A stretch of 64,000 nt of DNA, taken from Acutalibacter sp. 1XD8-33. GTDB lineage: Bacteria; Bacillota; Clostridia; Oscillospirales; Acutalibacteraceae. The notes below the pieces were generated by a model, which saw nothing but the letters and a program-made list of their open reading frames with translations, searched no databases and had not been told where the DNA came from. Both the position numbers and the translations under genes were made by a program. The stretch is from positions 1-64,000 of the forward strand of contig NZ_RAZF01000005.1 in NCBI RefSeq assembly GCF_003612555.1, given 5' to 3'. How positions within the stretch are numbered: position 1 is the stretch's first letter; each line of letters begins with the position of its first letter. Below, in pieces: positions 10,945-46,494 of this stretch.

Positions 10945-11430
10945 AGCTAACCAGGGAAAAAGTTTTGCTCGAGCTTTTTCAAAAGCTCGCGGTGGTTTGG
11001 AGGCAGAGCCTCCAAGGTCTTGCCCTTGGCCTTAAAACGCCTGAGAAAACAACGCGGGAAGATAGGGAAACAGTCCGGTGGACTGTTTCCCGCAAGAAAC
11101 CCACGTATGGGGGCGCTGGTCTCCACCGGAGACCAGCGCCGACCGAGCCGGCAGGCGAGACCCCCTATTTCGCTTTGCATTTGCAAAGCGAACGAAAGGC
11201 CTGCCCACTTCACCAAGCTGACTTTCTCCGCATCCGCCCCCCGCTCGCATTTTGCGGCTCGCCGCAAAATGGCCGTAGGCAAACGGGCTTTGCCCGTTTG
11301 TCCGGCGGTTCGTCCGAAGGACGAACCCGAGCGGGGCGGGGCCAGCTCCGCGGGCAGAGAGCCCGCCCAACGCACCGTGCCCGGTGCGCGCCAATTCACC
11401 ACCAAAAAGCTGCCAAGTTTTAACCAGCTG
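10945..11430. repeat. Family-B intergenic hairpin array, copy B1
   Basis: About 480 bp built almost entirely of short perfect hairpins in tandem. Examples are GAGCTTTTtcAAAAGCTC, TTGGAGGcagaGCCTCCAA, GCGCTGGTCTCcacc with its complement, TCGCTTTGCatttGCAAAGCGA, CATTTTGCGGctcgCCGCAAAATG and GTTCGTCCgaaGGACGAAC. The linkers AAGGTCTTGCC (near 11013) and CGACCGAGCCGGCAGG (11139-11154) recur in other copies. No coding potential beyond shadow ORFs. It fills the gap between the 6S-like RNA and the tldD promoter. Confidence 0.75.
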
Positions 11431-11496
11431 GACCGGTCACTGTTGTTGCCATAAAATTTTTCGGATTTCGTGCTCTAAAGCCTTGGAAAGATTTTC

Positions 11497-11525
11497 TTGA
11501 CAAACCTCACCTGACGAGGTACAAT
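11497..11525 (+). promoter_or_regulatory. Sigma-A promoter for the tldD-tldE operon
   Basis: TTGACA at 11497-11502, a 17-nt spacer and TACAAT at 11520-11525, 40 nt before the GTG start. Confidence 0.85.
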
Positions 11526-11564
11526 GGGTTTGGTTCTATATTCTGCACGCGAGGAGGTACTGTT

Positions 11565-12977
11565 GTGTTTTCTTCTTTCGATTCCATCAAACCCGCTTTG
11601 AAAAAGCTGGTTTCCGCCCTCTCGGAGGAGTATCCCTACGCCTCTCTGCTGGCTGTGGAGGACGACTGGCGGCGCTGGGGCGTCACCCAGGGCGGCGTGG
11701 TCCTAAACGCCTCCGGCTTCGGCGGCGGCACCGGCTTTGTGGTCCGGGTCTTTGATTCCACCGGCTGCGCCGAATACTCCTTCAACCAGTTCTCCGAGGA
11801 GCAAATCCCCGAGATCCGCGCCCTGCTGGCCCGCCGGCTGGCAGAGCAGAATCAGGCCCTGGGGGGATTTCAACCCCTGCCCACCCCCATCCCTGCCGAT
11901 GATCCCGCTCAGCTGAAGAAAGGGGCGCGGTTCCAGGTTGACCCCCGGGCGATGGGCGACGAGGCCATTCTCTCCAAGCTGAAAGCCATCCGGGAAAAGG
12001 CCCTAAAAACCGATGAACGCATTCTGGACGCCAGCCTGGGCATGGCTTACCGCTGCTGCCGCAAGCTGTTCCTCAGCAAGAACCGGGACCTGGACCAGAC
12101 CCTCATGTGGACCACCTGCGGCCTCTCCATGCTGGCCGCCCGGGGCCAGGAGCTGAAAAACAGCTACAAGGGCTTCTCCAACCTGGGTGGCGTGGAGGTT
12201 CTGGATCAGGTGGAAAGCGCCGTGGAGCAGGTCTCCCGGGAGACCATCGAGATGCTGGACTCAGAGCCTATCCCGCCCGGAGAGTACGACTGCGTCTGCG
12301 ACCCGGACACCACCGGCATGATCGTCCACGAGGCTTTTGGCCATGGCGTGGAGATGGATATGTTTGTGAAGGACCGGGCCCTGGGCAAAAATTACATCAA
12401 TGAATATGTTGCCAGCAAGCTGGTCACCATGCACGACGGCAGCACCGTGGACGAGGCGGCCACCATGTATTTTGACGATGAAGGCACCCTCACTGGAGAC
12501 ACGATGGTGATCGACAAGGGCGTGCTGAAAACCGGTATGTGCGACGCCCTCAGCGCGGCCCGGCTAGGGGTGAAGCCCACGGGCAACGGCCGCCGGGAGA
12601 GCTACGAGCGCAAGGCCTATACCCGCATGACCAACACCTATTTCGAGGCGGGGTCCCATACCCCCCAGGAAATGATTGCCTCCATCGACTACGGCTTTTT
12701 GCTGGAGCGGCCCAGCTCTGGCATGGAGGACCCGAAAAACTGGGGCATCCAGTGCATGGTCAGCGTAGCCCGGGAGATCAAGGACGGCAAACTCACCGGG
12801 AAAATCTTCTCCCCCATCGTTCTCACAGGCTATGTGCCCGACCTGCTGAAATCCGTCACCATGATGGGCTCCGATCTGGAGCTGGCCGGCGGTGGCTTCT
12901 GCGGCAAGGGCTATAAGGAGTGGGTCAAGGTCTCCGACGGCGGCCCCTATATGAAAGCCAGAATCCGACTGGGTTAA
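11565..12977 (+). CDS. tldD: TldD-family metalloprotease subunit
   Basis: TldD and its partner TldE/PmbA form a heterodimeric zinc protease that degrades unfolded peptides and matures modified peptides such as microcins. This 470-residue member has the zinc-binding motif HEAFGHGVE at about residues 255-263, the mark of the catalytic TldD subunit, and the usual C-terminal GGFCGKGYKEWV segment. Translation starts at GTG 11565, chosen because GAGGAGG lies at the right distance and no ATG is available. It is followed after 12 nt by the second subunit. No ribosomally made peptide precursor is evident nearby, so a general proteolytic role is the safer reading. Confidence 0.9.
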   Translation: MFSSFDSIKPALKKLVSALSEEYPYASLLAVEDDWRRWGVTQGGVVLNASGFGGGTGFVVRVFDSTGCAEYSFNQFSEEQIPEIRALLARRLAEQNQALGGFQPLPTPIPADDPAQLKKGARFQVDPRAMGDEAILSKLKAIREKALKTDERILDASLGMAYRCCRKLFLSKNRDLDQTLMWTTCGLSMLAARGQELKNSYKGFSNLGGVEVLDQVESAVEQVSRETIEMLDSEPIPPGEYDCVCDPDTTGMIVHEAFGHGVEMDMFVKDRALGKNYINEYVASKLVTMHDGSTVDEAATMYFDDEGTLTGDTMVIDKGVLKTGMCDALSAARLGVKPTGNGRRESYERKAYTRMTNTYFEAGSHTPQEMIASIDYGFLLERPSSGMEDPKNWGIQCMVSVAREIKDGKLTGKIFSPIVLTGYVPDLLKSVTMMGSDLELAGGGFCGKGYKEWVKVSDGGPYMKARIRLG

Positions 12978-12989
12978 GGAGGTAACAAG

Positions 12990-14282
12990 ATGATTGAGAG
13001 AATCAAGCAAGCGCTGAAGGACTGCGGCGTGTCCCTGTGGATTCTGGAGGACTTCACCGAGGAGACCGCCGAGCTCTTTTTCGTGAAGAAGCAGCTGGAC
13101 ACCCGGCGCTTCAAGGACGTGCGCAAGTTCAAAATCACGGTGTTCCGGGACGTGGAGGGCCAGGAGGACAAGCCCGCCCGTGGCTCCACCCAGATCACCC
13201 TGCTGGAGTCCATGAGCGACGGGCAGCTGCGCCAGGAGCTGGAATCCGCCTACTACGCCGCCCAGTTCGCCGCCAACCCCTATTTCGACCTGCCAGACCC
13301 CGTAGAGGCCCCCATCATGGAAAAGACCGGGGAGCTCGCGGAGGCCCTCCTGGCGGAGAGCGCCGGAAAGGCCGCCCGGGCCATCTTCACCCCGGACGTG
13401 CACGAGGACGCCTTCGTCAACTCCGCCGAAATCTTCGTCTCCCGCAGCCGCCGCCACATCCTCTCCTCCCAGGGCACGGACGCCGCCTACACCGACGCCC
13501 GGCTCAACGGGGAGTTCGTGGTCCAGTGCAGGGAGCCGGAGGACGTGGAGATCCACAATATCTACTCCTACGACGCCCTGAACACGGACGCCCTCTCCAA
13601 GAAGGTGGAGGAGGCCCTCACCTTTGTCCGGGACCGGGCCCGGGCCCAGCGGATCCTGAAGAGCGGCCAGTACGACGTGGTGCTCAGCGGCGAGAGCGTG
13701 CGCACGGTGCTCTCCTACTACGAGGACCGCGCCGCCGCCCACATGATCTACCCCGGCTACTCCACCTGGAAGCTGGGGGAGCACGTGCAGGGGGAGGAGA
13801 TCTCCGGCGCGAAACTGGACATCGACCTGTGCGCCACCCAGCCCTACAGCGAGGAGGGCATCCCCATGGAGGACCTGCCCCTTGTGCGGGGCGGGGAGCT
13901 GAAGTCCATCTACGGCGCGAACCGCTTCTGCCGCTACCTGGGGGTCAATCCCACCGGCGTGTATCGGAAGCTCCGCTGCCTGAACACCGGCGTGCCCTTT
14001 GAGGAGCTGAAGGCCGGGCCCTGCCTGTGGGCGGTCACCTTCTCCGACTTCCAGATGGACTCCATGAGCGGGCATTTCGGCGGGGAAATCCGTTTGGCCT
14101 ATCTAATCGAAAATGGCAAGGTTACTCCGGTGACCGGAGGCTCTATCAATGGCAGTCTGTTTGAGTGCCAGGGCGAAATGGCCTTCTCCAGCGATCGTTA
14201 TGAATCCGCTGGCTACTCCGGACCCTATGGCCTAAGGCTCAAAAACATTAACGTGGCGGGAGCCGGCGGGGAATATAATTAA
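12990..14282 (+). CDS. TldE/PmbA-family partner subunit
   Basis: Second gene of the pair, 430 residues. It follows the TldD/PmbA fold pattern (N-terminal IERIKQALKDCG, central nucleotide-like and C-terminal barrel regions) but lacks the HExxxH zinc motif, as expected for the non-catalytic TldE/PmbA subunit. A strong AAGGAGG site precedes the ATG and the gap to tldD is 12 nt, implying co-translation of a heterodimer. The last codons and the TAA stop fall inside the left terminal repeat of a family-A element beginning at 14275. A long opposite-strand ORF overlaps it but is a GC-driven shadow. Confidence 0.85.
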   Translation: MIERIKQALKDCGVSLWILEDFTEETAELFFVKKQLDTRRFKDVRKFKITVFRDVEGQEDKPARGSTQITLLESMSDGQLRQELESAYYAAQFAANPYFDLPDPVEAPIMEKTGELAEALLAESAGKAARAIFTPDVHEDAFVNSAEIFVSRSRRHILSSQGTDAAYTDARLNGEFVVQCREPEDVEIHNIYSYDALNTDALSKKVEEALTFVRDRARAQRILKSGQYDVVLSGESVRTVLSYYEDRAAAHMIYPGYSTWKLGEHVQGEEISGAKLDIDLCATQPYSEEGIPMEDLPLVRGGELKSIYGANRFCRYLGVNPTGVYRKLRCLNTGVPFEELKAGPCLWAVTFSDFQMDSMSGHFGGEIRLAYLIENGKVTPVTGGSINGSLFECQGEMAFSSDRYESAGYSGPYGLRLKNINVAGAGGEYN

Positions 14283-14394
14283 CGCAGTTCACACGAGGTA
14301 GAATCACCTCTTGTGAACCAGGCGGGGAGGTCACAACTTCCTGAGCCGCCCAGCTTGAAAATCGTATTTACCGAGTTTCAAGTGCGTTTACTAT
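14275..14394 (+). repeat. Family-A palindromic repeat, copy A1
   Basis: A 120-bp element with terminal inverted repeats ATAATTAACGCA (left) and TGCGTTTACTAT (right). Between them lie a GTTCACACGAGGT/ACCTCTTGTGAAC hairpin, a GGGGAGGT-rich centre and a decayed TTGAAAATCG hairpin. The left end overlaps the tldE stop codon. Confidence 0.75.
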
Positions 14395-14477
14395 AGGCCC
14401 TCTTCCCGGGAGCCAGAGACGCTTATAGGCCGAAGGAAGATTGCGCCTCTCTGGAACGAGCTTTGAAAAAGAATAGA

Positions 14478-14521
14478 GAAAAGCCGGGCCAGTTTACTAT
14501 AAAACTGGTCCGGCCTTTTTA
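14478..14521 (+). terminator. Rho-independent terminator of the tldD-tldE operon
   Basis: GCCGGGCCAGTTT pairs with AAACTGGTCCGGC (one G-U), followed by TTTTTA. Confidence 0.85.
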
Positions 14522-14609
14522 GGTATCCCGGGAAACCCCCTCTTTGCTCCGGGCCTCGTTCAAATCAGGCAGGGGGGCTAAGAAGCTGTACCAAGAGAAC
14601 ATTTGTCAA

Positions 14610-14640
14610 GGGGGATTTCACCCAAAAGATGAAATCCCCC
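14610..14640. terminator. Perfect 11-bp hairpin downstream of the VanZ-like gene
   Basis: GGGGGATTTCA / TGAAATCCCCC with a 9-nt loop, 32 nt past the end of the leftward vanZ-like gene. No clear T tract follows on the minus strand, so termination is only likely. Confidence 0.5.
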
Positions 14641-14672
14641 TCATAAATGGAAATTTACTAAAAAACAATCCG

Positions 14673-15197: not shown

Positions 15198-15345
15198 TGC
15201 GGCACTTCTTTCCACTTATAGCCCTATCCGAATTTTCATTTGTCGAATTGGCATGAGCAAAGTATACCATTGCAGACAGCTTTCAACCCTCTTTTATAGG
15301 CGTTTGTATTCCCCTTTCCGGCATATCCTATCGGTACAGTTTCTA

Positions 15346-15390
15346 AGAAAAATCGGTATCTACTGATTTTCAAGCGCGTTTACGATAGGT
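15346..15390 (+). repeat. Half copy of family-A repeat overlapping the esterase 3' end
   Basis: The right half of the element (AAAATCGGTATCTACTGATT then TTCAAGCGCGTTTACGATAG) matches the third hairpin plus right terminal repeat of the full copies. It encodes the last residues and stop codon of the esterase gene at 15360-16217. Confidence 0.7.
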
Positions 15391-19369: not shown

Positions 19370-19700
19370 AAACTTTTTTCTCTTGCAAAAAGTTTCCTCT
19401 TGGCGCTTTGCGCCAATTCACCCCGCAAAAATTGCGCTTCTCAGGTGTTAAGGTCAAGGGCAAGACCTTGAGGGCGTTGCCCTCAAACTCCCACGAGCTT
19501 TTGAAAAAGCTCGAGCAAAACTTTTACGTTGGTTAGTTGAGTGCGATAAAACTAACCAGGGAAAAAGTTTCGTCCACCTTTTCAAAGGTGGTGGGGTTCT
19601 TAGGGGCAGAGTTCGTAAGACGAAGTCTAACGAACTTTTAGGCCCAAGAGTTGACCAAATCTTTGATTTGGATCAACTCTAAGCTGCCAGAGGCCATCAT
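19370..19700. repeat. Family-B intergenic hairpin array, copy B2
   Basis: About 330 bp of joined hairpins: GGCGCtttGCGCC, GAGGGCgttGCCCTC, GAGCTTTTgaAAAAGCTC, CCACCTTTtcAAAGGTGG and an AGAGTTGA/TCAACTCT stem containing a CCAAATC/GATTTGG inner stem. The linkers AATTCACC, TTCTCAGGTGTTAAGG and GGCAAGACCTTGAG are shared with copy B5. It ends about 20 nt from the valS stop codon. Confidence 0.75.
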
Positions 19701-19719: not shown

Positions 19720-22338
19720 TTACAACGCGGCCAGGGCCTCCTGGATCCGCCGGACCTGCTCCTCCAGCTTCTCGCCGTTCTGGCGCACGCCCGCGATCAC
19801 CTTTTCCGGGGCCTTGCTCATGAAGGTCTCGTTGCCCAGCTTGGACTTCACCGTATCCAGCTGCTTCTGGGCGGAGGCCAGCTCCTTTTCCAGCCGGGCC
19901 CGCTCCGCCGCCCGGTCGATAAGGTCGTCCATGGGCAGATAGGCGCGGCAGCCGGAGGTCACCACCGTCACGGCGCCGGGCAGGTCGAAGCTCTCCCCCA
20001 CCTCCACGCCGGCACAGTAGGCCAGCCGGGCAATGGCGCCGGCCTCCTCCAGGAAGGCCTTGGGCGCGCCGGTCTCCACGTACAGATGGGCCTTCCGGGC
20101 GGGGGGCACGTTCATCTCGGCGCGCCGGGTGCGCACGGCGGTGATCAGCTCCATGACCTTCTCCAGCTCCGCCTCCTCCATGGGGAAGTCCAGGGCCGGG
20201 TCGAACTCCGGCCAGGGCGCGATCATCAGGGCCTCGCCCTCGTGGGGCAGGCTCTGCCAGATCTCCTCGGTGATGAAGGGCATGAAGGGGTGCAGCAGCT
20301 TCAGGGTGCTGCTCATCACCCACACCAGCACCTGCCGGACCCCCTGGGCGGAGGCCTCGTCCCCGCCGGTCAGGCGCAGCTTCGCCAGCTCGATGTACCA
20401 GTCGCAGAAATCCCCCCAGAGGAAGTCGTACACCTTCTGCACCGCCACGCCCAGCTCGAATTTCTCCAGGTTCTCCGTCATGTCCCGGGCCACCCGGTTA
20501 AACTTGCTGACGATCCATTTGTCCTCCAGGGTCAGGGTCTTCGGCAGGCGGCAGGGCACGTCCTTGCCGTCAATGTTCATATGGAGGAAGCGGGCCGCGT
20601 TCCAGATCTTGTTGGCGAAGTTCCGGCTGGCCGCCACCTTTTCATCGGAGTACCGGGTGTCGTTGCCCGGGCTGGTGCCGGTGATGATGGTCAGGCGCAG
20701 GGCGTCGGCACCATACTTGTCGATCACCTCCACCGGGTCCACGCCGTTGCCCAGGGACTTACTCATCTTCCGGCCCTGGGCGTCCCGGACCAGGCCGTGG
20801 AACAGCACCGTGTCAAAGGGGATCTCCCCCATCTGCTCGATGCCGGAGAAAATCATCCGGGCCACCCAGAAGAAGATGATGTCGTAGGCGGTGACCAGAG
20901 TGTTGGTGGGGTAGAAATACCGCAGGTCCTCGGTGTCCTCCGGCCAGCCCAGGGTGGAGAAGGGCCACAGCGCGGAGCTGAACCAGGTGTCCAGGGTGTC
21001 CTCGTCCCGGCGCAGGGGCTTGCCGCACTTGGGACAGACGGTCAGGTCCTCCTCTGAGACGAAGGTCTCCCCGCAGCCGTCGCAGTACCACGCGGGGATC
21101 TGATGCCCCCACCAGATCTGCCGGGAGATACACCAGTCCTTGATGTTCTCCATCCAGTTATAGTAGACCTTTTCCATGCGCTCGGGGATGATCCTGATCT
21201 TCTTCTCCCGCACCGCCGCGATGGCGGGCTTTGCCATGGACTCCATCTTCACGAACCACTGAGTGGAAACCCGGGGCTCCACCACGGTATGGCAGCGCTG
21301 GCAGGCTCCCACGTTGTGCTTGATCTGCTCCACCTTGATGAGCAGTCCGGCCTCGTCCAGGTCCTGAACAATCTGCCTGCGGGCCTCCAGGCCGGGCATC
21401 CCGGCGTATTTGCCGCCGTTCTCGTTGATCACGCCCCCCTCGTCCATGACGGTGATCACGGGCAGATTGTGGCGCTGGCCCACCAGGAAGTCGTTGGGGT
21501 CGTGGGCGGGAGTGATCTTCACCACGCCGGTGCCGAAGTCCATCTCCACGTACTCATCGGCCACGATGGGGATTTCCCGGTTCACCAGGGGCAGGATCAC
21601 GTTCTTGCCCACCAGATGCCGGTAGCGCTCGTCCTCCGGGTGCACGGCCACGGCGGTGTCGCCCAGCATAGTCTCCGGGCGGGTGGTGGCCAGCTCGATA
21701 TAGCCGGAGCCATCCGCCAGAGGATAGCGCAGATGCCAGAAGGAGCCCTCCTTCTCCTCAAACTCCACCTCCGCGTCGGAGAGGGCGGTCCGGCAGTGGG
21801 GACACCAGTTGATCATCCGCTCTCCCCGATAGATCAGGCCCTTTTCATAGAGCTTTACAAAGACATGACGCACGGCCCGGGAGCAGCCATCGTCCAGGGT
21901 AAAGCGCTGGCGCTCCCAGTCGGCGGAGGAGCCCAGGAGCTTCAGCTGCTCGGTGATGCGCCCGCCGTATTTCTCGTTCCACTGCCAGGCGCGCTCCATA
22001 TATTTTTCCCGGCCCATGCCCTCCTTGGTGAGGCCCTCTTTCCGCAGGGCCTCCACGATCTTCACCTCGGTAGCCAAGGCGGCGTGGTCCGTGCCGGGAA
22101 GCCACAGGGCGGAGTAGCCCTGCATCCGCTTCCAGCGGATGAGCACATCCTGGGTGGTCATGTTCATGGCGTGGCCCACATGGAGCTGGTCGGTGACGTT
22201 GGGCGGCGGCATCATAATGGTATAGGGCGTTTTCTTGGGATCCACCTGTGCGTGGAAGTACCTGCCCTTCAGCCAGAAATCGTAGATCCGGCCCTCCACC
22301 TCTTGGGGCTCGTAGGCCTTGGCTAAGTCTGTATTCAT
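19720..22338 (-). CDS. valS: Valyl-tRNA synthetase
   Basis: Class I aminoacyl-tRNA synthetase charging tRNA-Val with editing of threonine; 872 residues, normal for the family. The HIGH element appears in PPPNVTDQLHVGHAMNM (TDQ where most have TGQ), the KMSKS loop in GRKMSKSLGNGVDP, and the C-terminal coiled-coil arm in LIDRAAERARLEKELASA. The frame begins at 22374, but AAAGGAC is placed for the ATG at 22338. No T-box leader was found upstream; the 5' flank is a family-B repeat. Its 3' flank is another family-B repeat. Confidence 0.95.
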   Translation of the reverse strand: MNTDLAKAYEPQEVEGRIYDFWLKGRYFHAQVDPKKTPYTIMMPPPNVTDQLHVGHAMNMTTQDVLIRWKRMQGYSALWLPGTDHAALATEVKIVEALRKEGLTKEGMGREKYMERAWQWNEKYGGRITEQLKLLGSSADWERQRFTLDDGCSRAVRHVFVKLYEKGLIYRGERMINWCPHCRTALSDAEVEFEEKEGSFWHLRYPLADGSGYIELATTRPETMLGDTAVAVHPEDERYRHLVGKNVILPLVNREIPIVADEYVEMDFGTGVVKITPAHDPNDFLVGQRHNLPVITVMDEGGVINENGGKYAGMPGLEARRQIVQDLDEAGLLIKVEQIKHNVGACQRCHTVVEPRVSTQWFVKMESMAKPAIAAVREKKIRIIPERMEKVYYNWMENIKDWCISRQIWWGHQIPAWYCDGCGETFVSEEDLTVCPKCGKPLRRDEDTLDTWFSSALWPFSTLGWPEDTEDLRYFYPTNTLVTAYDIIFFWVARMIFSGIEQMGEIPFDTVLFHGLVRDAQGRKMSKSLGNGVDPVEVIDKYGADALRLTIITGTSPGNDTRYSDEKVAASRNFANKIWNAARFLHMNIDGKDVPCRLPKTLTLEDKWIVSKFNRVARDMTENLEKFELGVAVQKVYDFLWGDFCDWYIELAKLRLTGGDEASAQGVRQVLVWVMSSTLKLLHPFMPFITEEIWQSLPHEGEALMIAPWPEFDPALDFPMEEAELEKVMELITAVRTRRAEMNVPPARKAHLYVETGAPKAFLEEAGAIARLAYCAGVEVGESFDLPGAVTVVTSGCRAYLPMDDLIDRAAERARLEKELASAQKQLDTVKSKLGNETFMSKAPEKVIAGVRQNGEKLEEQVRRIQEALAAL

Positions 22339-22374
22339 TGTTATCAGTCCTTTGGTTTCTTGAGTATTTGACAA

Positions 22375-22615
22375 GGTCGTGGGGTTTCACCCCACACCCC
22401 ACAAACTTTTTGAAAAAAGTTTGATCAAAAACTTTTGCCCACTCCTCGCTTTGCTCGTCGTGAACGATTTATATGTTTTAGCTCAGCCACAACACATTGC
22501 GCGGTCAAGGGGCGTTAGGCCCCTTGTGGGGTTTGGGGCAACGCCCCAAGGTCTTGCCGTAGGCGGCGTTGCTGTGCCGCCGAAGGCCCCCTACTACTTC
22601 CAAAAAGCACGCGAT
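22375..22615. repeat. Family-B intergenic hairpin array, copy B3
   Basis: Between valS and the SLH gene: GTGGGGTttcACCCCAC, AAACTTttt..AAAAGTTT, AAGGGGCgttaGGCCCCTT, TTGGGGCaacGCCCCAA directly followed by the conserved linker GGTCTTGCC, then GGCGGCgttgctgtGCCGCC. The TTGGGGC/GCCCCAA stem occupies the same place as TTGGAGG/CCTCCAA in copy B1 with paired changes. Confidence 0.7.
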
Positions 22616-22629: not shown

Positions 22630-24324
22630 TTATTCTTCCGGCCTTTCCAGAGAGTCCGCGTAGCGCTGGAGCATGGTTGCGGCCTCGCTGCGCTTGGCGA
22701 AGTTTCTGGGGTTGAAGCGGCCGTTGGGGTCGCCCTTCACCAGTCCGGCCTCATAGCAGGCGTATACCTGGGGGCGAGCCCACTCCGCAATAGAAGCGCT
22801 GTCCGCAAAGCTGGGCGTCTCCTGGGCCTCTCCCAGCTCCAGGGCGTTCACCAGCACCCGGCACATCTCCTGGCGGGTGATATTGTCCTTGGGGCGGAAC
22901 TTGCCCCCGCTGCCCTCCATGATCCCGTTCTCCTTGGCCCAGACGGCCACCGAAGCGTACCATGCGTCCGCCGGCACGTCCGGAAAACTGTCACCCCCTT
23001 GATATTGGGTCAGGTCCGCGTTTAGGACATTCGCCATCACCTTGGCAAACTCAGCCCGGGTAATATTTTTGTTAGGGTTGAAGCGTCCGGCGCTGTCCCC
23101 GTTGAAATATCCCAGCTCCGAAACCCGGTTCACGCTGTCGAAGAACCAGTCGTCCCGGCCTACGTCCGGATAGCGCAGGGGTTCGTAATCTTGGCCCAAA
23201 TACACATAGGCGCTGGGGCATTTCGTGGGATACTTCTGCCCGCTTACCGTTACCTTATTATCTGTAAAGGGGTCCAGCTCAATATGGGAGGGCTGGTTCT
23301 GAAACGCCGCCCCTCCTACCACCGACTGAGAGCCCACCAGAAAATAGGTGGTGTCCCCGGCGCCCCGGCCGTCATCCCAGGTCAGGTCCACGTTGTACCA
23401 GCGGCCGTCATCCATCTTCACGTTGTTCCACATGTGGTCCTTGCTGCTTACCAGAATACAGGGCACCCGCAGCATATCGCAGACCAGCTTGAAAGCCTTG
23501 GAGTAGCCGTCGCAGACCGGCTCGTATTGATCTCCGGCGATGAGGGCACTGTACGCGCTGTGGGTGAGCTTCTTTGCAATTTCCGTTTCCGGCGTATAAT
23601 TGTAGCGGGCCTGCGCCGCGATCAGGTTGTGGGCGGCCAGCACCTTGGAATAGGTATCCGGCTCCCGGCCCGCCTGGGCGGCAAGATCCTGGGCAGCCTC
23701 CATCATCTGGGTGCGCATGGATTTCTCCGCGCCATTATAGGGCAGGTTAAAGCGAAATCCCGCCCGGCTCACTGTGCCATAGGCGCTGCCCTGGGAGGTG
23801 GTAAACAGGAACACCGGACCCACGCCTCCCTCCAGCCACAGCATGTCCGGCCGGTCATAGCGCAGGGCAACCAGGCCCGCCAGCATATCATTCTGCAGGG
23901 CCTTATACTCCTTTTGTGTGGCGCTGTCCGCAGCCGGTCTGAAGGCTCCGCCGGAGGCCTGTCCTTTCAGCTTTGCGCCGGTAACCCCCTCGATCTCCAT
24001 AATAACCCGGTGATCGGAAGAGGAAAGAATCCTGTCGATGCTGATACTTTCCAAAGCCCTGTAGCAGGCCTTCTGCCGGGTGTTCAGCCGGCTATAGAAA
24101 GAGCCGTCCAGCAGGGCGTTTTCCGGCGACCGGAAAACAGAGCCGGAATCCAGCCCCTCCTCCAAAACCTCTCCTTCGAGAATCGATTCCGTCTCTAAAA
24201 TAAAAGCCTTGTCCCTGGCCTGCTCTCCAGCGGAAGCCGCTGTATATACCGGCTGAGCCAGCAGTAATGCTGCGGCAAGCAGGGCCGCCCAAAGCCGCCG
24301 GGCCAGGCTCTTACAGTTTTTCAT
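22630..24324 (-). CDS. S-layer-homology surface protein with transglutaminase-like domain
   Basis: Exported protein of 564 residues. A signal peptide (about 1-31) ends at TAASA. A transglutaminase-like cysteine-protease domain spans about 215-345, with the catalytic Cys in EPVCDGYSKAF, His in KDHMWN and Asp in YNVDLTWDDG. Three C-terminal SLH repeats (about 400-560; each with an F/YxDV..W opening and GRFNP..ITRAE-type end) should anchor it to secondary cell-wall polymer. Likely a cell-surface peptidase or cross-linking enzyme. It is divergent from another SLH protein, with 319 nt between the starts. A pyridine-nucleotide or metal site is not evident. Confidence 0.9.
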   Translation of the reverse strand: MKNCKSLARRLWAALLAAALLLAQPVYTAASAGEQARDKAFILETESILEGEVLEEGLDSGSVFRSPENALLDGSFYSRLNTRQKACYRALESISIDRILSSSDHRVIMEIEGVTGAKLKGQASGGAFRPAADSATQKEYKALQNDMLAGLVALRYDRPDMLWLEGGVGPVFLFTTSQGSAYGTVSRAGFRFNLPYNGAEKSMRTQMMEAAQDLAAQAGREPDTYSKVLAAHNLIAAQARYNYTPETEIAKKLTHSAYSALIAGDQYEPVCDGYSKAFKLVCDMLRVPCILVSSKDHMWNNVKMDDGRWYNVDLTWDDGRGAGDTTYFLVGSQSVVGGAAFQNQPSHIELDPFTDNKVTVSGQKYPTKCPSAYVYLGQDYEPLRYPDVGRDDWFFDSVNRVSELGYFNGDSAGRFNPNKNITRAEFAKVMANVLNADLTQYQGGDSFPDVPADAWYASVAVWAKENGIMEGSGGKFRPKDNITRQEMCRVLVNALELGEAQETPSFADSASIAEWARPQVYACYEAGLVKGDPNGRFNPRNFAKRSEAATMLQRYADSLERPEE

Positions 24325-26587: not shown

Positions 26588-26686
26588 TATAAGTAAACGC
26601 ACTTCAAGCTGGGTGGCTGAGGCGGTTGTGGCCTCCCCGCCTGGTTCAAAAGAGGTATTCTACCCCTTTTGAACTGCGTTAACTAT
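26588..26686 (-). repeat. Family-A palindromic repeat, copy A2 (inverted)
   Basis: About 99 bp, opposite in orientation to A1 and A3. It starts TATAAGTAAACGCA and ends TGCGTTAACTAT. The GGTTCAAAAGAGGT/CCCCTTTTGAAC hairpin is intact, while the third hairpin is shortened. Its end overlaps the stop codon of the AraC-type gene at 26683. Confidence 0.75.
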
Positions 26687-27570
26687 ATTTGCTCTTTTCG
26701 TTCCACCGGAACCCACACCTCATAATAGCGCTTTTTCTTCCGCTGCTCTTTGTCCGTCCACAGATGATAAACCTCTATGACCAGATCCCCTTTCTGCCGG
26801 TAGTCTGAAGCCGGAAACCAGGCCTGGAAAATCTCCTCAAAAGCCCTGGGAATCTCCTCCCAAGCCAATCCCCCGGGCTTTGTGCGGAAAGCCGCGTATG
26901 TCCCCGCCGGAATGGTCTGAATCTCCAGCATGTCAGGCGCCTTTACCCAAGACTTTTCCCGGGCAATCAGATAGCGCCCCTTCTGCCATAAGCCATACCA
27001 CACGCCATCCATCGCCTGACTACCCGGCTGATTCCACTGAGCCTGGCTGATCTTCCCCGGTACGTCCTCCTCCAGCTCCGACCACATCTTATTCCGCAGC
27101 TCCTCCCGGCTCCGATATCCCCTTCCCTCAAAGGCCCGGCTGATCCCGTAAATCTTCAATTCAGGCAGTTCCGTCATCCGCATGTCCATCTCATCCGCTC
27201 CTATAATTTTTATTTGGAAGGAAGCCGGAAAACACGTTTTCAGCCAGCCGTCTCCTTTCCGGTAGGCAGTTGGCGTGAGTCCGTGCTGTCTGGCAAAGGC
27301 CCGAGAAAATGCGTCTACGCTGTCATAGCCATACTTTAGGGCTATATCAATTACCCGGGCCTCTGTCTCCCCCAGATCCATAGCAGCCAGGGTCAGCCTG
27401 CGGCAGCGGATATATTCCTTCACCGTCATGCCGGTCATATAGCTGAAAAAACGGGCAAACCCATCTGCCGAAACGCAGGCCAGCCGCGCAGCCTCTTCCA
27501 GATCCACATCGCCGGTCAGGCTGCTTTCGATATAGGCCATCGCCCTGTTAAGCCCTTTCAGCATATTCAT
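26683..27570 (-). CDS. AraC-family regulator with GyrI-like effector domain
   Basis: Rob/TipA-style transcription factor of 295 residues. The N-terminal AraC double helix-turn-helix (about 1-110) includes DLEEAARLACVSADGFARFF and the second helix pair ending DAFSRAFARQHGLTPTAYR. The C-terminal half (about 135-290) looks like a GyrI/BacR small-molecule-binding domain (IPAGTYAAFRTKPGG). GGAGGTGAAACG fixes the start at the ATG at 27570. The frame remains open upstream with protein-like sequence (FDYDKYWEGIAEVFPDG) as far as repeat A3. The gene is bracketed by inverted family-A copies, and its TAG stop lies in A2. No effector gene is adjacent. Confidence 0.85.
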   Translation of the reverse strand: MNMLKGLNRAMAYIESSLTGDVDLEEAARLACVSADGFARFFSYMTGMTVKEYIRCRRLTLAAMDLGETEARVIDIALKYGYDSVDAFSRAFARQHGLTPTAYRKGDGWLKTCFPASFQIKIIGADEMDMRMTELPELKIYGISRAFEGRGYRSREELRNKMWSELEEDVPGKISQAQWNQPGSQAMDGVWYGLWQKGRYLIAREKSWVKAPDMLEIQTIPAGTYAAFRTKPGGLAWEEIPRAFEEIFQAWFPASDYRQKGDLVIEVYHLWTDKEQRKKKRYYEVWVPVERKEQI

Positions 27571-27682
27571 TCGTTTCACCTCCATCTCCCGTAAACGCAT
27601 TGGAAACCCTTCGGGCCTCAAGGGGGCGGCCCCGTCCGGAAAGACTTCCGCGATTCCTTCCCAGTATTTGTCATAGTCAAAT

Positions 27683-27805
27683 ATAGTTAACGCAGTTCAA
27701 AAGAGGTATCCTATCTCTTTTGAACCAGGTGGGGAGGTCACGACCTCCTCAGCCGCCCAGCTTGAAAATCGGTATATACCGATTTTCAAGTGCGTTTACT
27801 TATAG
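27683..27805 (+). repeat. Family-A palindromic repeat, copy A3 (best-preserved)
   Basis: About 123 bp. Left terminal repeat ATAGTTAACGCA, right TGCGTTTACTTATAG. Three stem-loops: GTTCAAAAGAG / CTCTTTTGAAC, GGAGGTCacGACCTCC, and the perfect 30-nt palindrome CTTGAAAATCGGTAT with its complement. It lies upstream of the AraC-type gene. Confidence 0.8.
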
Positions 27806-34964: not shown

Positions 34965-35350
34965 CCGCTCCAAACGAGGCGAAATAAGCAGACTGGGTTT
35001 CGCGGTGGTGTCAAAAAGATAGACGCTCGCGCGGCTCGGTCTATCTTTCCGTTTCCGCCCCAGCCGTGAGACGGCTGTCTTTTGCTACGCAAAAGTGCGG
35101 CGAAAACTCTGCCAAGCTAGGTGCGAAGCGCCCCCAGCTAGCCAGGGTAAAAGTTTTGTAGACTTCGTTTTACGAAGTCTTACCTTTCTCAAAGGTGGTG
35201 GAGGTTTTTGGAGGGCGACAATTGCCAGTGGCGATTTCCCATCGCCGACCGAAACTGCAGCTGAGACTCAACGCCTCCAAGGTCTTGCCGGAATGCGCGG
35301 CAGACTTGGCTTTGCCAAGTGTTGTGCGCATGGAGGCCACACAGTATCAC
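34965..35350. repeat. Family-B intergenic hairpin array, copy B4
   Basis: Located within the opp operon between oppA and oppB. Modules in order: AAGATAGAC/GTCTATCTT stem, AGACTTCGttttaCGAAGTCT, ACCTTTctcAAAGGT, GGCGAcaattgccagt..ATCGCC, linker GCCGACCGAAACTGCAG, GCCTCC plus AAGGTCTTGCC, and ACTTGGctttgCCAAGT. It matches copy B5 module by module. The rest of the gap (35351-35616) holds nothing I can identify. Confidence 0.75.
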
Positions 35351-42093: not shown

Positions 42094-42893
42094 ATACAGG
42101 CTCTAACGGAAAGGATTGTGACACTATGCCAACCATCCTGAATTTATCCTTTCAGATGGGAGAAGTCCTTTTGGAAAACGGAGCGGAAATCTCCCGCGTA
42201 CAGGAGACCATGGAGCGGGTTGCCTGTGCCTATCGAATTGACAGCTTCCAGGTGTATGTGCTTACCAACGCCATCTTTGCCACCGGCGTGGAACAGGGGG
42301 TGGAGCGCACCGCCATGCTCAAGCATATCCCCAGCACCGCCACCCATCTGGGCCGGATCTGCGCCGTGAACCAGCTTTCCCGGGAAATCGTCCAGGGCGC
42401 CCACACGGTGGAAGAGGCCTCCGCCCGGCTGGAGGAGATCCGCGCTCTGCCCTACTCTCCCCTGCCCCTGGCTGTACTGGCCTGCGCCGTGGGCAGCGCC
42501 TCTTTCAGCTATCTTTTCGGAGGAAGCTGGCGGGACGCCGCCGTGGCTTTCGTCTGCGGTGTGGCCCTGGAGCTGTTTCTCAGCTTTGTAGGCCGGAAAG
42601 GGATGTCCAAATTTCTCACCAACCTTTCCGCCAGCGCGTTGGTCACCTTGTGCGGTGGGGTGTTTTTTCTGCTGGGACTGGGAGACAACATGGATAAGAT
42701 CATCATCGGATCCATTATCCGCCTGGTTCCCGGCGTGGCCCTCACCAATTCCATCCGGGATTTCTTTCACGGGGACTACCTGAGCGGGGCCATCCGGATG
42801 CTGGACGCCTTCCTCATCGGCGGCTGTATCGCCGTGGGCGTGGGCTTTGTCGTGCGGGGCCTTTCTATGCTGACAGGAGGTGCTTTGCTGTGA
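42090..42893 (+). CDS. Threonine/serine exporter, large subunit (ThrE N-terminal part)
   Basis: A 267-residue membrane protein of the ThrE family, first half of a split exporter. The N-terminal cytosolic domain has MGEVLLENGAEISRVQETM and MLKHIPSTATHL-type motifs of DUF1212; about five membrane helices follow (from about residue 125). Two starts are possible: ATG 42090, coupled to the previous stop by ATGA, or ATG 42126 with GGAAAGGA. The next gene, overlapping it by one to four nucleotides, encodes the other half. The family exports threonine and serine in corynebacteria; substrate here is inferred. Confidence 0.85.
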   Translation: MNTGSNGKDCDTMPTILNLSFQMGEVLLENGAEISRVQETMERVACAYRIDSFQVYVLTNAIFATGVEQGVERTAMLKHIPSTATHLGRICAVNQLSREIVQGAHTVEEASARLEEIRALPYSPLPLAVLACAVGSASFSYLFGGSWRDAAVAFVCGVALELFLSFVGRKGMSKFLTNLSASALVTLCGGVFFLLGLGDNMDKIIIGSIIRLVPGVALTNSIRDFFHGDYLSGAIRMLDAFLIGGCIAVGVGFVVRGLSMLTGGALL

Positions 42894-43351
42894 TGAATTT
42901 TCTCACCCTAGGAAGCTGGGCTCTCCAGACCGCCGTGGCCTTCGCGGCTACCATCGCCTTTGCGATCATCTTCCACGCTCCCCGCAGGGAGCTGTTGTAC
43001 ACCGGTTTTACCGGCGGCGCGGGCTGGCTGGTCTATGTAATCGCTACTGCGTCCGGCAGCGGAGTGGTGGCCGCTTCCTTCCTGGCCACCCTGGCTCTGG
43101 CCTGGCTCTCCCGGGTGTTTTCCTTTGCCCGCAAAGCCCCGGTGACGGTGTTTCTGATCTGCGGGATCTTCCCCTTGGTGCCTGGCGCGGGGATCTACTA
43201 TACCGGCTACCATTTCTTCATGGGGCAGGATGCTCTGGCTTTAGACAAGGGGCTGGAAACCATCAAAATTGCCATTGCCATTGCCCTGGGCACCGGCATT
43301 GTGCTGTCTCTGCCTTCGTTTCTGTTCACAGCCCGGCGCAAAGCCAAATAG
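42893..43351 (+). CDS. Threonine/serine exporter, small subunit (ThrE C-terminal part)
   Basis: A 152-residue membrane protein matching the DUF3815 half of ThrE, with five hydrophobic helices and the GIFPLVPGAGIYY motif. A GTG at 42890 directly precedes the ATG at 42893; CAGGAGG is compatible with either, and the choice changes only one residue. It completes the exporter begun by the preceding gene and closes the kinase operon, followed by a terminator at 43393. Confidence 0.87.
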   Translation: MNFLTLGSWALQTAVAFAATIAFAIIFHAPRRELLYTGFTGGAGWLVYVIATASGSGVVAASFLATLALAWLSRVFSFARKAPVTVFLICGIFPLVPGAGIYYTGYHFFMGQDALALDKGLETIKIAIAIALGTGIVLSLPSFLFTARRKAK

Positions 43352-43392
43352 AAGCCAGGACCGCTTGACAAAAATCCCACAAGAAAAAACGG

Positions 43393-43428
43393 AGAGTTCA
43401 TCTCGAGAGGCGAGATGAACTCTCTTTT
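43393..43428 (+). terminator. Rho-independent terminator after the ThrE genes
   Basis: Perfect 13-bp stem AGAGTTCATCTCG / CGAGATGAACTCT with a 5-nt loop, followed by CTTTT. Confidence 0.87.
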
Positions 43429-43459
43429 GGAATTGAAAAAAGGTTTCCTAGTCTTGGTG

Positions 43460-43579
43460 TATCGTAAACACACATAAAGCCGGCAGATACCGCTTTTTAA
43501 GCTGGGCGGCTGAGGAGGTCGCGACCTCCCCGCCGGGTTCCAAAAAGGCGCTCTACCTCTTTGGAGCTGTGTGAACTAT
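43460..43579 (-). repeat. Family-A palindromic repeat, copy A4 (degenerate, inverted)
   Basis: About 120 bp. Starts ATCGTAAACACA, contains AGCTGGGCGGCTGAGGAGGT and GGAGGTCgcGACCTCC, and ends GTGTGAACTAT. The outer hairpins are damaged but the central one is perfect. It lies between the convergent ThrE operon and prfC. Confidence 0.65.
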
Positions 43580-43690
43580 TGAAAAACGCATCGGACTTAG
43601 CGACACGCTGGTCTCCGCGCGAACGGAACCCGCCCTCCAAACGGTTTGCCCAATTTGCACGCACCGCTCCCGGCTCCTGGGAATAAGGGC

Positions 43691-45295
43691 TCAGCTCTCG
43701 CTAAACTCTGAGAGCATCAGCCCCTCGTTGCGCTCCAGGGCCCAGTTGATGCTCCACTGGTTGGAAAAGAGCAGCAGATAGCGGCCCTTCAGGTCCTGGA
43801 CCTTTTTGGTGTCCGAGGTGAGGTTCAGCTTCTTTAGGGCGGCCTCGTCCATGTCCTCATTGTCGATCCAGCGGATGAAGGAGTAGGGCAAAGTCTGCAT
43901 GTGGACCTCTACATTATACTCGTTCTCCATGCGGTACTGGAACACATCGAATTGTAGGCTACCCACCACTCCTACAATAACCTCCTCCATGCCGGAGTTG
44001 ATCTCCTGGAAGATCTGGATAGCGCCCTCCTGGGCGATCTGGTTGGCCCCTTTCACAAACTGCTTGCGCTTCATGGTGTCCTTCTGGCGCACCAGGCTGA
44101 ACAGCTCCGGGGCGAAGGTGGGGATGCCCTGAAACCGGATTTTCTTTCCCGGGGCACAGAGGGTGTCCCCGATGGAGAAGATTCCCGGGTCGAACACGCC
44201 GATGATATCCCCGGCGTAGGCCTCCTCGATGATCTCCCGGCTCTGGGCCATGAGCTGCTGGGGCTGGCTGAGCTTGATCCGCCGCTTGCCCTGGACATGG
44301 TCCACCTCCATGCCCTTCTCAAATTTCCCGCTGCAAATGCGGATGAAAGCAATCCGGTCCCGGTGGGCCTTGTTCATGTTGGCCTGGATCTTGAACACAA
44401 AGGCGGAGAAATCCGGGTCAAAGGGATCTACCTGGCTCTCCGAGGCGGACCGGGGCAGTGGCGGGGGCGTGAGGCGCAGAAAGTCCTCCAGGAAGGGCTC
44501 CACGCCGAAATTGGTGAGGGCCGAGCCGAAGAACACCGGGGACAGCTTGCCGTGGCGAACCTTGTCGATGTCGAACTCGTAGCCCGCGCCGTCCAGAAGC
44601 TCCACGTCGTCTCTCAAAGTATCATATAAATATTCGCCGATGGTCTCCCGGAGGGCCGGGTCGTCCAGGGAGAAGGTCTGCTCCTCCACCTCCCGGCGGC
44701 CCGCGCCGCTCTCCTCCGGCACAAAGCGGAGCACCTGGTTTTTCTCCCGGTGGTACACACCCTTAAAGTCCACGCCGGAGCCGATAGGCCAGTTCATAGG
44801 GTAGGTGCCGATGCCCAGCTCCTTCTCGATCTCGTCCAACAGGTCATAGGGACTGCGGGAATCCCGATCCATTTTATTGATGAAGGTGAAGATGGGGATG
44901 TCCCGCATGACGCACACCTTGAAGAGTTTGCGGGTCTGGGCCTCCACGCCCTTGGAGGCGTCGATAACCATGACGGCGGAATCCGCCGCCATCAGGGTGC
45001 GGTAGGTGTCCTCGGAGAAGTCCTGGTGGCCGGGGGTGTCCAGAATATTGATGCAAAAATCATTGTACTGGAACTGCATGACAGAGGAGGTGACGGAGAT
45101 GCCCCGCTGCTTTTCGATTTCCATCCAGTCAGAGACAGCATGACGGGAGTTCCGTTTGCCCTTCACCATCCCCGCCAGGGCAATGGCCCCGCCGTAGAGG
45201 AGAAATTTTTCCGTAAGGGTGGTCTTGCCCGCGTCCGGGTGGGAGATGATGGCAAAGGTCCGGCGGCGGGTAATTTCGGTTTTTAAATCAGGCAT
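43691..45295 (-). CDS. prfC: Peptide chain release factor 3
   Basis: GTPase recycling RF1/RF2 from the ribosome after peptide release; 534 residues, close to the E. coli length of 529. G1 is SHPDAGKTTLTEK, G2 RGISVTSS, G3 LDTPGHQDF and G4 INKMDRD, all canonical for RF3, with the family-specific C-terminal FDVFQYRMENEYNVEV. Two upstream in-frame ATGs exist; GAAAGG is spaced for 45295. It is convergent with the ThrE operon and followed by no obvious terminator. Confidence 0.93.
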   Translation of the reverse strand: MPDLKTEITRRRTFAIISHPDAGKTTLTEKFLLYGGAIALAGMVKGKRNSRHAVSDWMEIEKQRGISVTSSVMQFQYNDFCINILDTPGHQDFSEDTYRTLMAADSAVMVIDASKGVEAQTRKLFKVCVMRDIPIFTFINKMDRDSRSPYDLLDEIEKELGIGTYPMNWPIGSGVDFKGVYHREKNQVLRFVPEESGAGRREVEEQTFSLDDPALRETIGEYLYDTLRDDVELLDGAGYEFDIDKVRHGKLSPVFFGSALTNFGVEPFLEDFLRLTPPPLPRSASESQVDPFDPDFSAFVFKIQANMNKAHRDRIAFIRICSGKFEKGMEVDHVQGKRRIKLSQPQQLMAQSREIIEEAYAGDIIGVFDPGIFSIGDTLCAPGKKIRFQGIPTFAPELFSLVRQKDTMKRKQFVKGANQIAQEGAIQIFQEINSGMEEVIVGVVGSLQFDVFQYRMENEYNVEVHMQTLPYSFIRWIDNEDMDEAALKKLNLTSDTKKVQDLKGRYLLLFSNQWSINWALERNEGLMLSEFSES

Positions 45296-45401
45296 AAGAG
45301 CCATCCTTTCATATTGGAGTAACATGAGGCAGACGGGCAATCGCTACATGGGAGACACCCTTTCTCGTGGCGCGCTATCTATGTTTTTTCAAAACTACCC
45401 T

Positions 45402-45887
45402 TTACAACGGCTTCAAGCCATCGTAGAGTTCATTAAATGACTTCATCCCGTGGCAGCGGCCATAGGAGAGCTCCTTGTTGTCTCCAAAGGCCTCCAGCCA
45501 GCATTTTGCCAGCTCTTCCACGGTAATCTCCAAATTCACCATGAACTGGGTATACATGGCGCTATATTCCGGCGAGCCCTCGGAATAGTGGGCGTCAATG
45601 AGCCCTTCGGTAAGCTGGTCCAGAGGATAGAGCTTTAGATGAAGCAGCTCGTGGCAGATGACCTCCTCCAGGTTCCCCCCTTTGGGATTGCGCCGGTTCA
45701 GCAGCAAAACCGCCTTTCGGTCCGTGGGATCTATCTTGAAATCCCCAGTCTTGGTGAAGCCCTCGTCGTCCACCATCTCCAGGCGCACGTCCCAACTTTC
45801 CTTCAACCGCAGCAGCCCCCGCCACTTCTCAAAGACGGGCAGCAGCGCCTCCTGGGTGCAGGGTTCCGAAACAGAATGCATATCCAT
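45402..45887 (-). CDS. Small HExxH-motif protein, function unknown
   Basis: A 161-residue cytosolic protein. I do not recognise the family with certainty. EEVICHELLHLKLYPLDQ gives an HExxH zinc-binding motif of minimal zinc peptidases (SprT, ImmA and similar), preceded by the strand AVLLLNRRNPKGG, which fits their arrangement. GAAAGGATGAGACG precedes the ATG at 45887; the longer frame to 45998 is repeat sequence. It is followed on the same strand by prfC with a 106-nt gap. Upstream lies the family-B repeat B5. Confidence 0.65.
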   Translation of the reverse strand: MDMHSVSEPCTQEALLPVFEKWRGLLRLKESWDVRLEMVDDEGFTKTGDFKIDPTDRKAVLLLNRRNPKGGNLEEVICHELLHLKLYPLDQLTEGLIDAHYSEGSPEYSAMYTQFMVNLEITVEELAKCWLEAFGDNKELSYGRCHGMKSFNELYDGLKPL

Positions 45888-45939
45888 CGTCTCATCCTTT
45901 CTATATTTTTGAGCGTTTTTATGGGGGAAACGGCACACC

Positions 45940-46494
45940 GCACCAAGCAAAGCGAAATGCGTGGCTGGGCTTCGCCGTCGTGACAAAAAGATAAACACTC
46001 GCGCAGCTCGGTTTATCTTTCCGTTTTCCTACGGAAAACTCTGCCAAGTTGAGTGCTGGATGCCCAGAGCTGGCTGGTTCCGGAGCCCAGGGGATGCTTC
46101 TTTTCTTGCAAAAAAGAGCCTCTTAAGAGTTTTGCTTCGCAAAACTCGGATAGTTAACCGAGCACAGCGAGTGTTAACTATGATTCACCACTTCAAAAAA
46201 TGCGCTTCTCAGGTGTTAAGATCAAGGGCAAGACCGTGGGACTCCGTCCCACACCCTGCGAGCTTTTGAAAAAGCTCGACCAAAACTTTTAACCTGGTTA
46301 GCTGAGTGCGCAAAAGTCAACCAGCGTAAAATGTTTCGTAGACTTCGTTTCACGAAGTCTTGCCTTTCTCAAAGGCTGCGGGGTTTTTTAGGGGGCGACA
46401 ATCGCCAGTGGCGATTTCCCGTCGCCGACCGAACCGGCAGGTGAGAAGAACCCCTAAACCGCCGGAGGCCTGCGCAGCGAAGCGAGCACCACTC
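45940..46494. repeat. Family-B intergenic hairpin array, copy B5 (longest)
   Basis: About 555 bp. Contains AAGATAAAC/GTTTATCTT, GTTTTGCttcGCAAAAC, ATAGTTAAC..GTTAACTAT, TTCTCAGGTGTTAAG, GGCAAGACC, GTGGGActccGTCCCAC, GAGCTTTTgaAAAAGCTC, AGACTTCGtttcaCGAAGTCT, GGCGACaatc..GTCGCC and GACCGAACCGGCAGG. It combines the modules of B4 and B2. Its right edge adjoins the stop codon of the pyridoxal-kinase-like gene. Confidence 0.75.

Follow-up and report, generated by a model that had tools for sequence, protein, structure and literature searches.

What keeps the two arms of a small hairpin complementary while their letters change? This question is raised by a 64,000-nucleotide stretch of DNA from Acutalibacter sp. 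1XD8-33 (contig NZ_RAZF01000005.1, positions 1 to 64,000; hereafter the window), in which a reading made from the sequence alone (the sequence-only reading) had picked out five islands of short hairpins and fixed linkers and had assigned them to a single 'family B'. We find instead that several module families are mixed in the islands, and that one of them, which we call the X element, is spread over many genera of Clostridia. X is an element of ~54 letters that occurs in distantly related Clostridia with changing letters and a constant folded shape, which is expected of a very small mobile element. It seems to us rather probable that very short mobile DNA of several families, non-autonomous and able to form hairpins, makes up the mosaics seen in the islands; of these families, X is the best defined.

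The X element

The core of X is the reverse complement of CGACCGARCCGGCAGG, one of the linkers of the sequence-only reading, which occurs at positions 11140 and 46426 of the window. The element follows the formula NTCTC-[RNC TGCC GN'Y]-TCGGTC-[P1 (optional P2) P3 with CC-ACY-GG tip]. The NTCTC 5' end is followed by a 3-bp mini-hairpin with a TGCC loop, the unpaired TCGGTC, and the P1 stem, which opens with GG and whose return arm ends in CC; a P2 hairpin is present in the long form only, and the P3 hairpin has the tip CC-ACY-GG. Short copies are mostly 54 bp long, while long copies, with the extra hairpin, are 63–73 bp. The core hits behind this anatomy are 108 foreign ones and 64 own ones, with P1 detected in 96 and 46 of them, respectively; the foreign set includes loci of the congener G026 (L189, L213, L227, and L234), and the search pattern for loci L159–L238 fixed the letters of the mini-hairpin except one R and one Y.

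A covariance model, R1, places three X copies in the window, all on the minus strand: at 11112–11161 in island 1 (58 bits, E = 2e-11; core CGACCGAGCCGGCAGG), at 35214–35267 in island 4, a diverged copy (57.2 bits, E = 3.1e-11), and at 46394–46447 in island 5, with the P3 stem AATCGCC/GGCGATT (66.4 bits, E = 1.8e-13). The same model finds 98 copies at E ≤ 0.01 in our sample of the own genome, which comprises 842,865 bp (the window with the remainder of contig C61, plus 400 kb of C17 and 260 kb of C28), or ~23% of 3.62 Mb. A scan of the window with Rfam 15 gave no family at the islands at the gathering score, and nothing lies over X at E ≤ 5 in seven X loci, in agreement with the sequence-only reading, which knew of no described family with this design.

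Covariation of the stems

The sequence-only reading had proposed covariation as the test of its idea, and across genomes the pairing of X is indeed far above that of shuffled and slid controls. Two alignments were used: A1 holds 15 copies of exactly 54 bp from ~10 genomes, one of them a congener, and A2 holds 11 copies of exactly 65 bp from ~10 genomes; 13 distinct 63-bp copies and other lengths were left out. In A1, 224 of 225 cells are paired, with 44 cells changed on both sides and 1 on one side, and the two-sided changes fall at 10 of the 15 pairs. In A2, 230 of 231 cells are paired, with 22 two-sided changes and 1 one-sided change. Together, 454 of 456 cells pair, and there are 66 two-sided vs. 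2 one-sided changes. The observed pairing and score were reached by 0 of 500 shuffles for either alignment, and when the partner is slid by 1–3 columns in A1, pairing falls to 27–50%. Because P1 (helix 2) was used for picking the rows, it is not an independent test; P3 is.

Within the own genome, some ten different stems occupy the slot that follows the linker, and all of them pair. Among 21 copies (210 pairs), the outer 6 nt of the arms diverge by 0.26 per site, compared with 0.075 for the linkers. In four own X subfamilies (103 copies), we counted 43 two-sided stem changes, of which 40 are still paired, and 27 one-sided changes, the count for subfamily T4 including one loop pair taken as a stem pair. 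Per site, one-sided stem changes occur at 0.014–0.022 and changes at other sites at 0.063–0.105, so that the former are ~3–6 times rarer. A perfect hairpin follows at once after 21 of 39 linker copies; among the remaining 18 are nested inserts, chimeras, copies with point changes, and copies whose start is shifted. The X stems are variable in their letters but kept paired.

Distribution

At least 115 stretches from named genomes contain a 23-mer of X, and 80 of them are listed. The carriers among the matches listed are rumen Ruminococcus metagenome-assembled genomes (MAGs), Eubacterium coprostanoligenes ATCC 51222, Neglectibacter sp. X58, Lachnospiraceae AC2029, Candidatus Acutalibacter, Caccousia, D16-76, and others. 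Model R1, with at most 19 candidates scored per genome, finds X in 38 of the 295 genomes sampled from the order and in 27 of 148 genera, the own genome included. The exact 16-mer core is present in 12 of 291 genomes of the class, again including the own, and at least two of these 12 (G336 and G172) show no X-like sequel by eye. Of the 29 genomes of the genus, 21 contain the core, with 1 to 178 copies each; the own genome has 178 (0 in reversed controls), and its 28 congeners have 0 to 89.

Phages and plasmids hardly carry X. The 23-mer was not found in plasmid records, and it occurs in two phage records of Ruminococcus and five IMG/VR stretches; the 16-mer core is unspecific in the viral collection (at least 120 stretches), and the viral counts rest on the 23-mer. 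In two Ruminococcus phage records, an X-like sequence (86%) lies under a hypothetical protein (PV036433.1:38346-38410 and PV036441.1:27766-27830). One contig of a MAG labelled Alistipes contains X (L201); this label is probably a binning error, because the other listed carriers with informative titles are Clostridia or Bacillota. X also lies inside tRNA-Pro-like repeats in Lachnospiraceae AC2029 (L214:6200-6550, where it stands between GGATTTGAACCTGCG and CTCTGCG) and in genome G145 (L275:1460-1900). In the latter genome, two X in tandem occur twice, adjoining an intact tRNA-Pro. An origin of X from tRNA, prompted by these two genomes, was rejected, since the arrangement is not general.

Flanks, nesting, and orthologous gaps

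The flanks of 56 or 57 foreign and 22 own copies were counted after filters for P1 (≥5 bp), length, flank, and duplicates; the own subfamilies T3 and T4 were mostly left out because their P1 is imperfect. The base directly 3' of X is a C in 49 of the 56 foreign copies and in 21 of the 22 own ones, against a background of ~24%, and the next position is a pyrimidine in 52 of 56. The 5' side shows little preference in foreign copies. Thus, X has a one-sided fixed flanking motif, on its 3' side, as IS200/IS605-type elements have.

X is also found inside other hairpins more often than expected. A host stem of ≥5 bp surrounds 23 of 57 foreign copies (mean of 500 shuffles 10.2, maximum 17) and 15 of 22 own copies (mean 9.2, maximum 14). 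In locus L203, for example, X sits in a hairpin loop between GTGGGGCTTCG and CCCCAC.

The genome of G026 is 86% identical to the own genome over the open reading frame (ORF) at 19720–22374, which we take to encode valyl-tRNA synthetase, and 62 syntenic gaps were compared. The 22 gaps that hold an island here have a median length of 486.5 bp here and 251 bp in G026, and 7 of them are ≥300 bp here and ≤150 bp in G026. The medians of the 40 gaps with no island are alike, 203.5 bp here and 230 bp in G026. The number of X cores, counted by a rule that misses diverged copies, differs in 8 of the 62 gaps, the core always being present here and absent in G026. At C28:83351, an X-like copy in G026 has no counterpart here, as judged by eye. 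At C28:61799, two adjacent hairpins differ between the species, one of them here with a G.T, while the neighbours on the left and right are kept. This pattern speaks for an exchange of cassettes in addition to insertion.

Islands of the window and of the genome

The five places picked out by the sequence-only reading are indeed hairpin mosaics with fixed linkers, although each linker does not occur in every island: the B linker is present in two of the five and X in three. Perfect hairpins (arm ≥7, loop 3–8) total 29, and the means of 200 dinucleotide shuffles for each island are 0.10–0.40, with a maximum of 3. Island 1 (10945–11430), between a 6S RNA terminator and a promoter-like site, has 9 such hairpins (shuffle mean 0.40); island 2 (19370–19700), downstream of the minus-strand ORF 19720–22374, has 6 (0.27); island 3 (22375–22615), between this ORF and another minus-strand ORF, 22630–24324, has 4 (0.10); island 4 (34965–35350) has 4 (0.15); and island 5 (45940–46494) has 6 (0.22). 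Islands 1 and 5 were folded as single-stranded DNA and gave z = −11.3 and −5.5, respectively.

The stems that had been named as differing yet pairing are all present at equivalent places. In island 1, a Y-type hairpin CGAGCTTT/AAAGCTCG (10970–10989, minus strand) precedes a slot hairpin TTGGAGGC/GCCTCCAA (10997–11015, minus), which adjoins the linker GGCAAGACC (11016–11024, minus). In island 2, the linker TTCTCAGGTGTTAAGGTCAAGGGCAAGACC (19438–19467, plus) is followed by the slot hairpin TTGAGGGC/GCCCTCAA (19468–19486, plus). Island 3 has the slot hairpin TTGGGGC/GCCCCAA (22533–22549) with linker GGCAAGACC (22550–22558) on the minus strand, and island 5 has the linker TTCTCAGGTGTTAAG...GGCAAGACC with the slot hairpin GTGGGAC/GTCCCAC (46236–46252) within 46206–46252 on the plus strand. 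The AAGATA stems are not the short hairpins they were taken for, their loops being of 14 bases. Island 4 contains the long-loop stem AAGATAGAC/GTCTATCTT (35016–35047, plus; arms at 35016 and 35039), and its covarying counterpart in island 5 is AAGATAAAC/GTTTATCTT (45988–46019, plus; arms at 45988 and 46011).

The linkers are not random. GGCAAGACC occurs 9 times in the window, 5 times within the islands and 4 times outside, where 0.81 occurrences are expected, and 9 was reached by 0 of 100 shuffles. TTCTCAGGTGTTAAG is found exactly at 19438 and 46206; with 3 mismatches allowed, at least two window matches are also seen in 39 of 100 shuffles. Over the whole genome, it has 80 matches at ≤1 mismatch, and a 20-mer from the 35230 place has 64 at ≤2 mismatches, with 0 in the reversed control for each.

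In the sample of the own genome, islands were marked by repeated 12-mers and sorted by a loose motif rule. This gave 144 islands, together 35.9 kb, with 405 perfect hairpins compared with 11–22 in ten shuffles. The density of perfect hairpins is 11.3 per kb in islands, 1.7 in other intergenic DNA, and 0.46 in coding DNA. The kind described by the sequence-only reading accounts for 122 islands, which have 367 hairpins and span 32.6 kb, or 3.9% of the sample; of the others, 20 belong to a second family and 2 to neither. Eight of the 144 lie mostly inside predicted ORFs. Small DNA hairpins, frequently one inside another, crowd the intergenic spaces of this genome.

Other modules and neighbours

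The Y module comprises a slot hairpin that follows GACC, the linker ACCCNN, another hairpin whose loop is TGAA-like, and the tail CRAAACTTT. A search for Y in 80 foreign loci gave 9 matches in 7 loci, 8 of the matches being relatives by eye, and 0 in reversed controls. The B module, the 30-mer TTCTCAGG...GACC at ≤3 mismatches, has a narrower reach than X and was found in the own genome, G024, and G026 among 60 relatives. Some larger islands are built as Y, centre, and inverted Y, reading AAGACC...GGTCTT; in one of them, the two ends have different stems in the same slots, each pairing within itself.

More nested families, whose outer stems are fixed and whose inner stems vary, are seen in islands of the own genome (G000), such as C61:75140-75785; examples are AGAGTTC..GAACTCT and, inside X, ATACTTGGC-nnn-GCCAAGTAT. 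In G024, inverted pairs of X cores lie exactly 106 bases apart on C82, C85, and C146, and 126 apart on C15, which suggests a composite unit.

The second repeat family resembles a classical miniature inverted-repeat transposable element (MITE). Its hairpins, GTTCAAAAGAGG../..CCTCTTTTGAAC and CTTGAAAATCGGT-atat-ACCGATTTTCAAG, have a GC-rich linker between them, and its ends are TAGTTAACGCA / TGCGTTTACTATA-like. In the window, it occurs at 14279–14394, 26592–26687, 27682–27800, 61408–61510, and in part at 43359–43566. Among the neighbours of the islands, a 6S RNA (10582–10786, plus) and a good terminator-like site (10796–10819) immediately precede island 1, and a skipping-rope RNA (49445–49541, minus) and a NiCo riboswitch (50125–50196, plus) lie farther along the window.

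Relation to known repeats

The closest kinds are the repetitive extragenic palindromes (REPs), with their bacterial interspersed mosaic elements (BIMEs), and the nested palindromes of organelles. REP/BIME sequences are short extragenic palindromes of high copy number that form mosaics and are regarded as non-autonomous mobile DNA (PMC2817692, PMC3733652), and in Stenotrophomonas REPs the palindrome is retained despite substitutions (PMC2817692). The islands are likewise high-copy extragenic palindromes in mosaics (122 islands in 843 kb). Unlike REPs, X has no GTAG or CGTC tag in its consensus, and no REP-associated tyrosine transposase (RAYT) flanked by X was found; X also differs in its multi-helix domain, in which unpaired blocks are conserved, in its nested lodging in loops, and in its hosts, which are Clostridia. 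The words 'Firmicutes' and 'Clostridi' are absent from the main texts of PMC2817692 and PMC3733652. Insertion sequences that land preferentially in REP palindromes (PMC1525189) carry transposases, whereas here the guests are ~54-bp hairpins.

In the organelles of Volvox carteri, ~50-nt intergenic palindromes occur in both orientations, often inserted in one another, and are thought to be selfish (PMC2670323). The nesting is similar; the Volvox palindromes differ in being organellar and in having loops that are mostly TAAA/TTTA, and the available part of the paper describes no covarying multi-helix element shared by distant genera. The GC clusters of yeast mitochondria (GC42) are tiny palindromes under a secondary-structure constraint that proliferate, merge, and shuffle; these are mitochondrial, target AG in that paper, and have stems marked by fewer substitutions, not by covariation (PMC4478555). 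The mitochondria of sponges have dispersed hairpins, also double or multiple, two types of which differ by complementary substitutions; besides being organellar, they have conserved stems and variable loops, the reverse of X (PMC2800124). A survey of candidate RNAs in the human microbiome gave 3161 models, among them 250 palindromic candidates, some of which are possibly REPs (PMC8040213). In the open-licence PubMed Central (PMC) literature, no paper has CCTGCCGGCTCGGTCGG, and no description of these repeats is found among the matches listed. We therefore regard X as a new family, with an overall design akin to known REP/BIME-like kinds.

Discussion

How could so small an element spread with its stems intact? 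We propose that hairpin elements settle in intergenic DNA, either next to or inside one another's hairpins. The X unit would move as DNA. Its 3' end abuts a C-rich target, and the GG at the opening of P1 may pair with the Cs of this target. An enzyme acting in trans would recognise the folded shape and a few fixed bases, which would restrict spread to copies that are well paired. The X stems would then drift in letters yet stay paired because mobility, not host function, selects the pairing; mobility would likewise explain the spread, the target, and the nesting. In a more specific form, which we offer tentatively, X may found a class of minimal mobile elements (~52–73 bp) that are recognised by shape and not by sequence. 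An enzyme of Clostridia would bind the TCTC/TGCC/TCGGTC frame plus any paired stems and join the unit 5' of a C-rich site, the Cs completing the closing stem, and repeated rounds, by X and related elements, would have built the nested islands, ~4% of the sampled DNA.

The strong covariation would also be expected if the structure were selected as RNA, with the modules serving the host as terminators, mRNA 3' stabilisers, or regulatory elements, and the location of the islands between genes fits this, as does their lower frequency in divergent gaps (11/130 vs. 43/262). The B linker is opposite to the tandem genes in 15 of 20 cases (p = 0.04, uncorrected, with six motifs tested). However, X has the orientation of the flanking tandem genes in 27 cases and the opposite one in 21, with no preference; the Y tail (19:19) and the GACC slot (32:31) have none either, and X is evenly divided with respect to GC skew (36:36). 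RNA pairing tolerates G.U on one strand, and the mispairs in the 456 in-register cells of A1 and A2 are 2 G.T, 1 A.C, and 1 other. Cruder counts of G.T vs. A.C give 9 vs. 6 of 366 for foreign P3 and 2 vs. 2 of 108 for own P3, where the cells are partly out of register (19/366 and 5/108 'other' mispairs), and 0 vs. 1 of 183 for the foreign mini-hairpin. G.T is therefore about as rare as A.C, which, with small numbers, argues against a strand-specific RNA. The islands do not show the pattern of an intrinsic terminator, a GC-rich hairpin followed by a T run: the five of them have two terminator-like sites compared with 29 perfect hairpins. The islands have no bias to gene ends, 44 of 104 tandem islands being nearer the upstream stop than the next start. 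Copies are patchy among congeners. We consider a host RNA unlikely, and of the two forms of selected structure put forward by the sequence-only reading, we favour DNA, cruciform or single-stranded. X and its kin might also be IS200/IS605-type (Y1 HUH) elements or REPs mobilised by a RAYT, and this we regard as improbable, although slightly less so than a host RNA. The ends of IS200/IS605 elements have a hairpin substrate, a one-sided flanking target, and guide-like pairing, which the X hairpin, its 3' target, and its GG-CC pairing resemble, and the own genome has Y1_Tnp. Y1_Tnp is, however, present in 9 of the 29 genomes of the genus, own included, and does not track X: the core occurs with no Y1 in G023 (62 copies), G025 (42), and G005 (17), and G010 has Y1 and no core. 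The own Y1 locus (L152; two other own hits are weaker) has other hairpins and no X in the inspected flanks. X copies are divided 36:36 between the G-rich and C-rich strands in 40-kb windows of GC skew, a proxy for the replication strand, and the GTAG or CGTC tag is missing.

The main rival is that recombination or gene conversion swaps hairpin cassettes through shared linkers, while the arms correct each other by template switching in replication, so that transposition is not needed for covariation. Such recombination with arm-to-arm correction probably acts in part; as the explanation of the whole, we judge it rather unlikely. The higher divergence of the arms (26%) than of the linkers (7.5%) supports it, and arms differ in 59 of 73 copy pairs whose linkers are ≤1/30 different. 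The exchange at C28:61799, chimeric slots with two arm types (GTAGAGG..CCTCCAA), and the near lack of one-sided intermediates between genomes support it as well. It leaves unexplained the X architecture in many genera of Clostridia, the C at the 3' end of X, and the excess of X inside host hairpins, which mobility accounts for.

Several observations count against mobility. As many pair types as observed were seen in 31 of 500 shuffles for A1 and in 22 of 500 for A2, and subfamily T1 (42 copies) has 8 one-sided and 0 two-sided changes. Of the foreign X copies, 34 of 57 have no detectable host hairpin. In the orthologous gaps shared with G026, a clean pair with and without a single X was not found, because several modules differ at once in the pairs inspected, and no target-site duplication, a mark of classical MITEs together with terminal inverted repeats, could be defined. 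No recurrent transposase-like ORF was found beside X at 99 loci, where ORFs ≥90 aa were clustered all against all and viewed by eye. G023, with 62 core copies, has no match to Y1_Tnp, RVT_1, or IS110, and G026, with 89, none to RVT_1 or IS110, each genome being 86% complete. RVT_1 and IS110 (DEDD) do not track X across the genus, and the Y2_Tnp profile had no match, with control genomes equally silent, and is uninformative. A further candidate, cargo of a group II intron or retroelement, finds no support: RVT_1 is present in the own genome and G001 and missing from the X-rich G026, G023, and G025 (42 core copies), which are 85–86% complete.

If X is mobile, its enzyme would recognise DNA by its folded shape, with stems free in sequence, and X would to our knowledge be among the smallest transposable units known. 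The repeats are also cautionary, since textbook covariation, often read as functional RNA, is seen here in repeats with no strand preference; their pairing may stem from mobility or from arm-to-arm copying. Near the contig ends of several draft genomes among the matches listed, such repeats are present. They are found in many gut and rumen Clostridia, where they lengthen the intergenic DNA.

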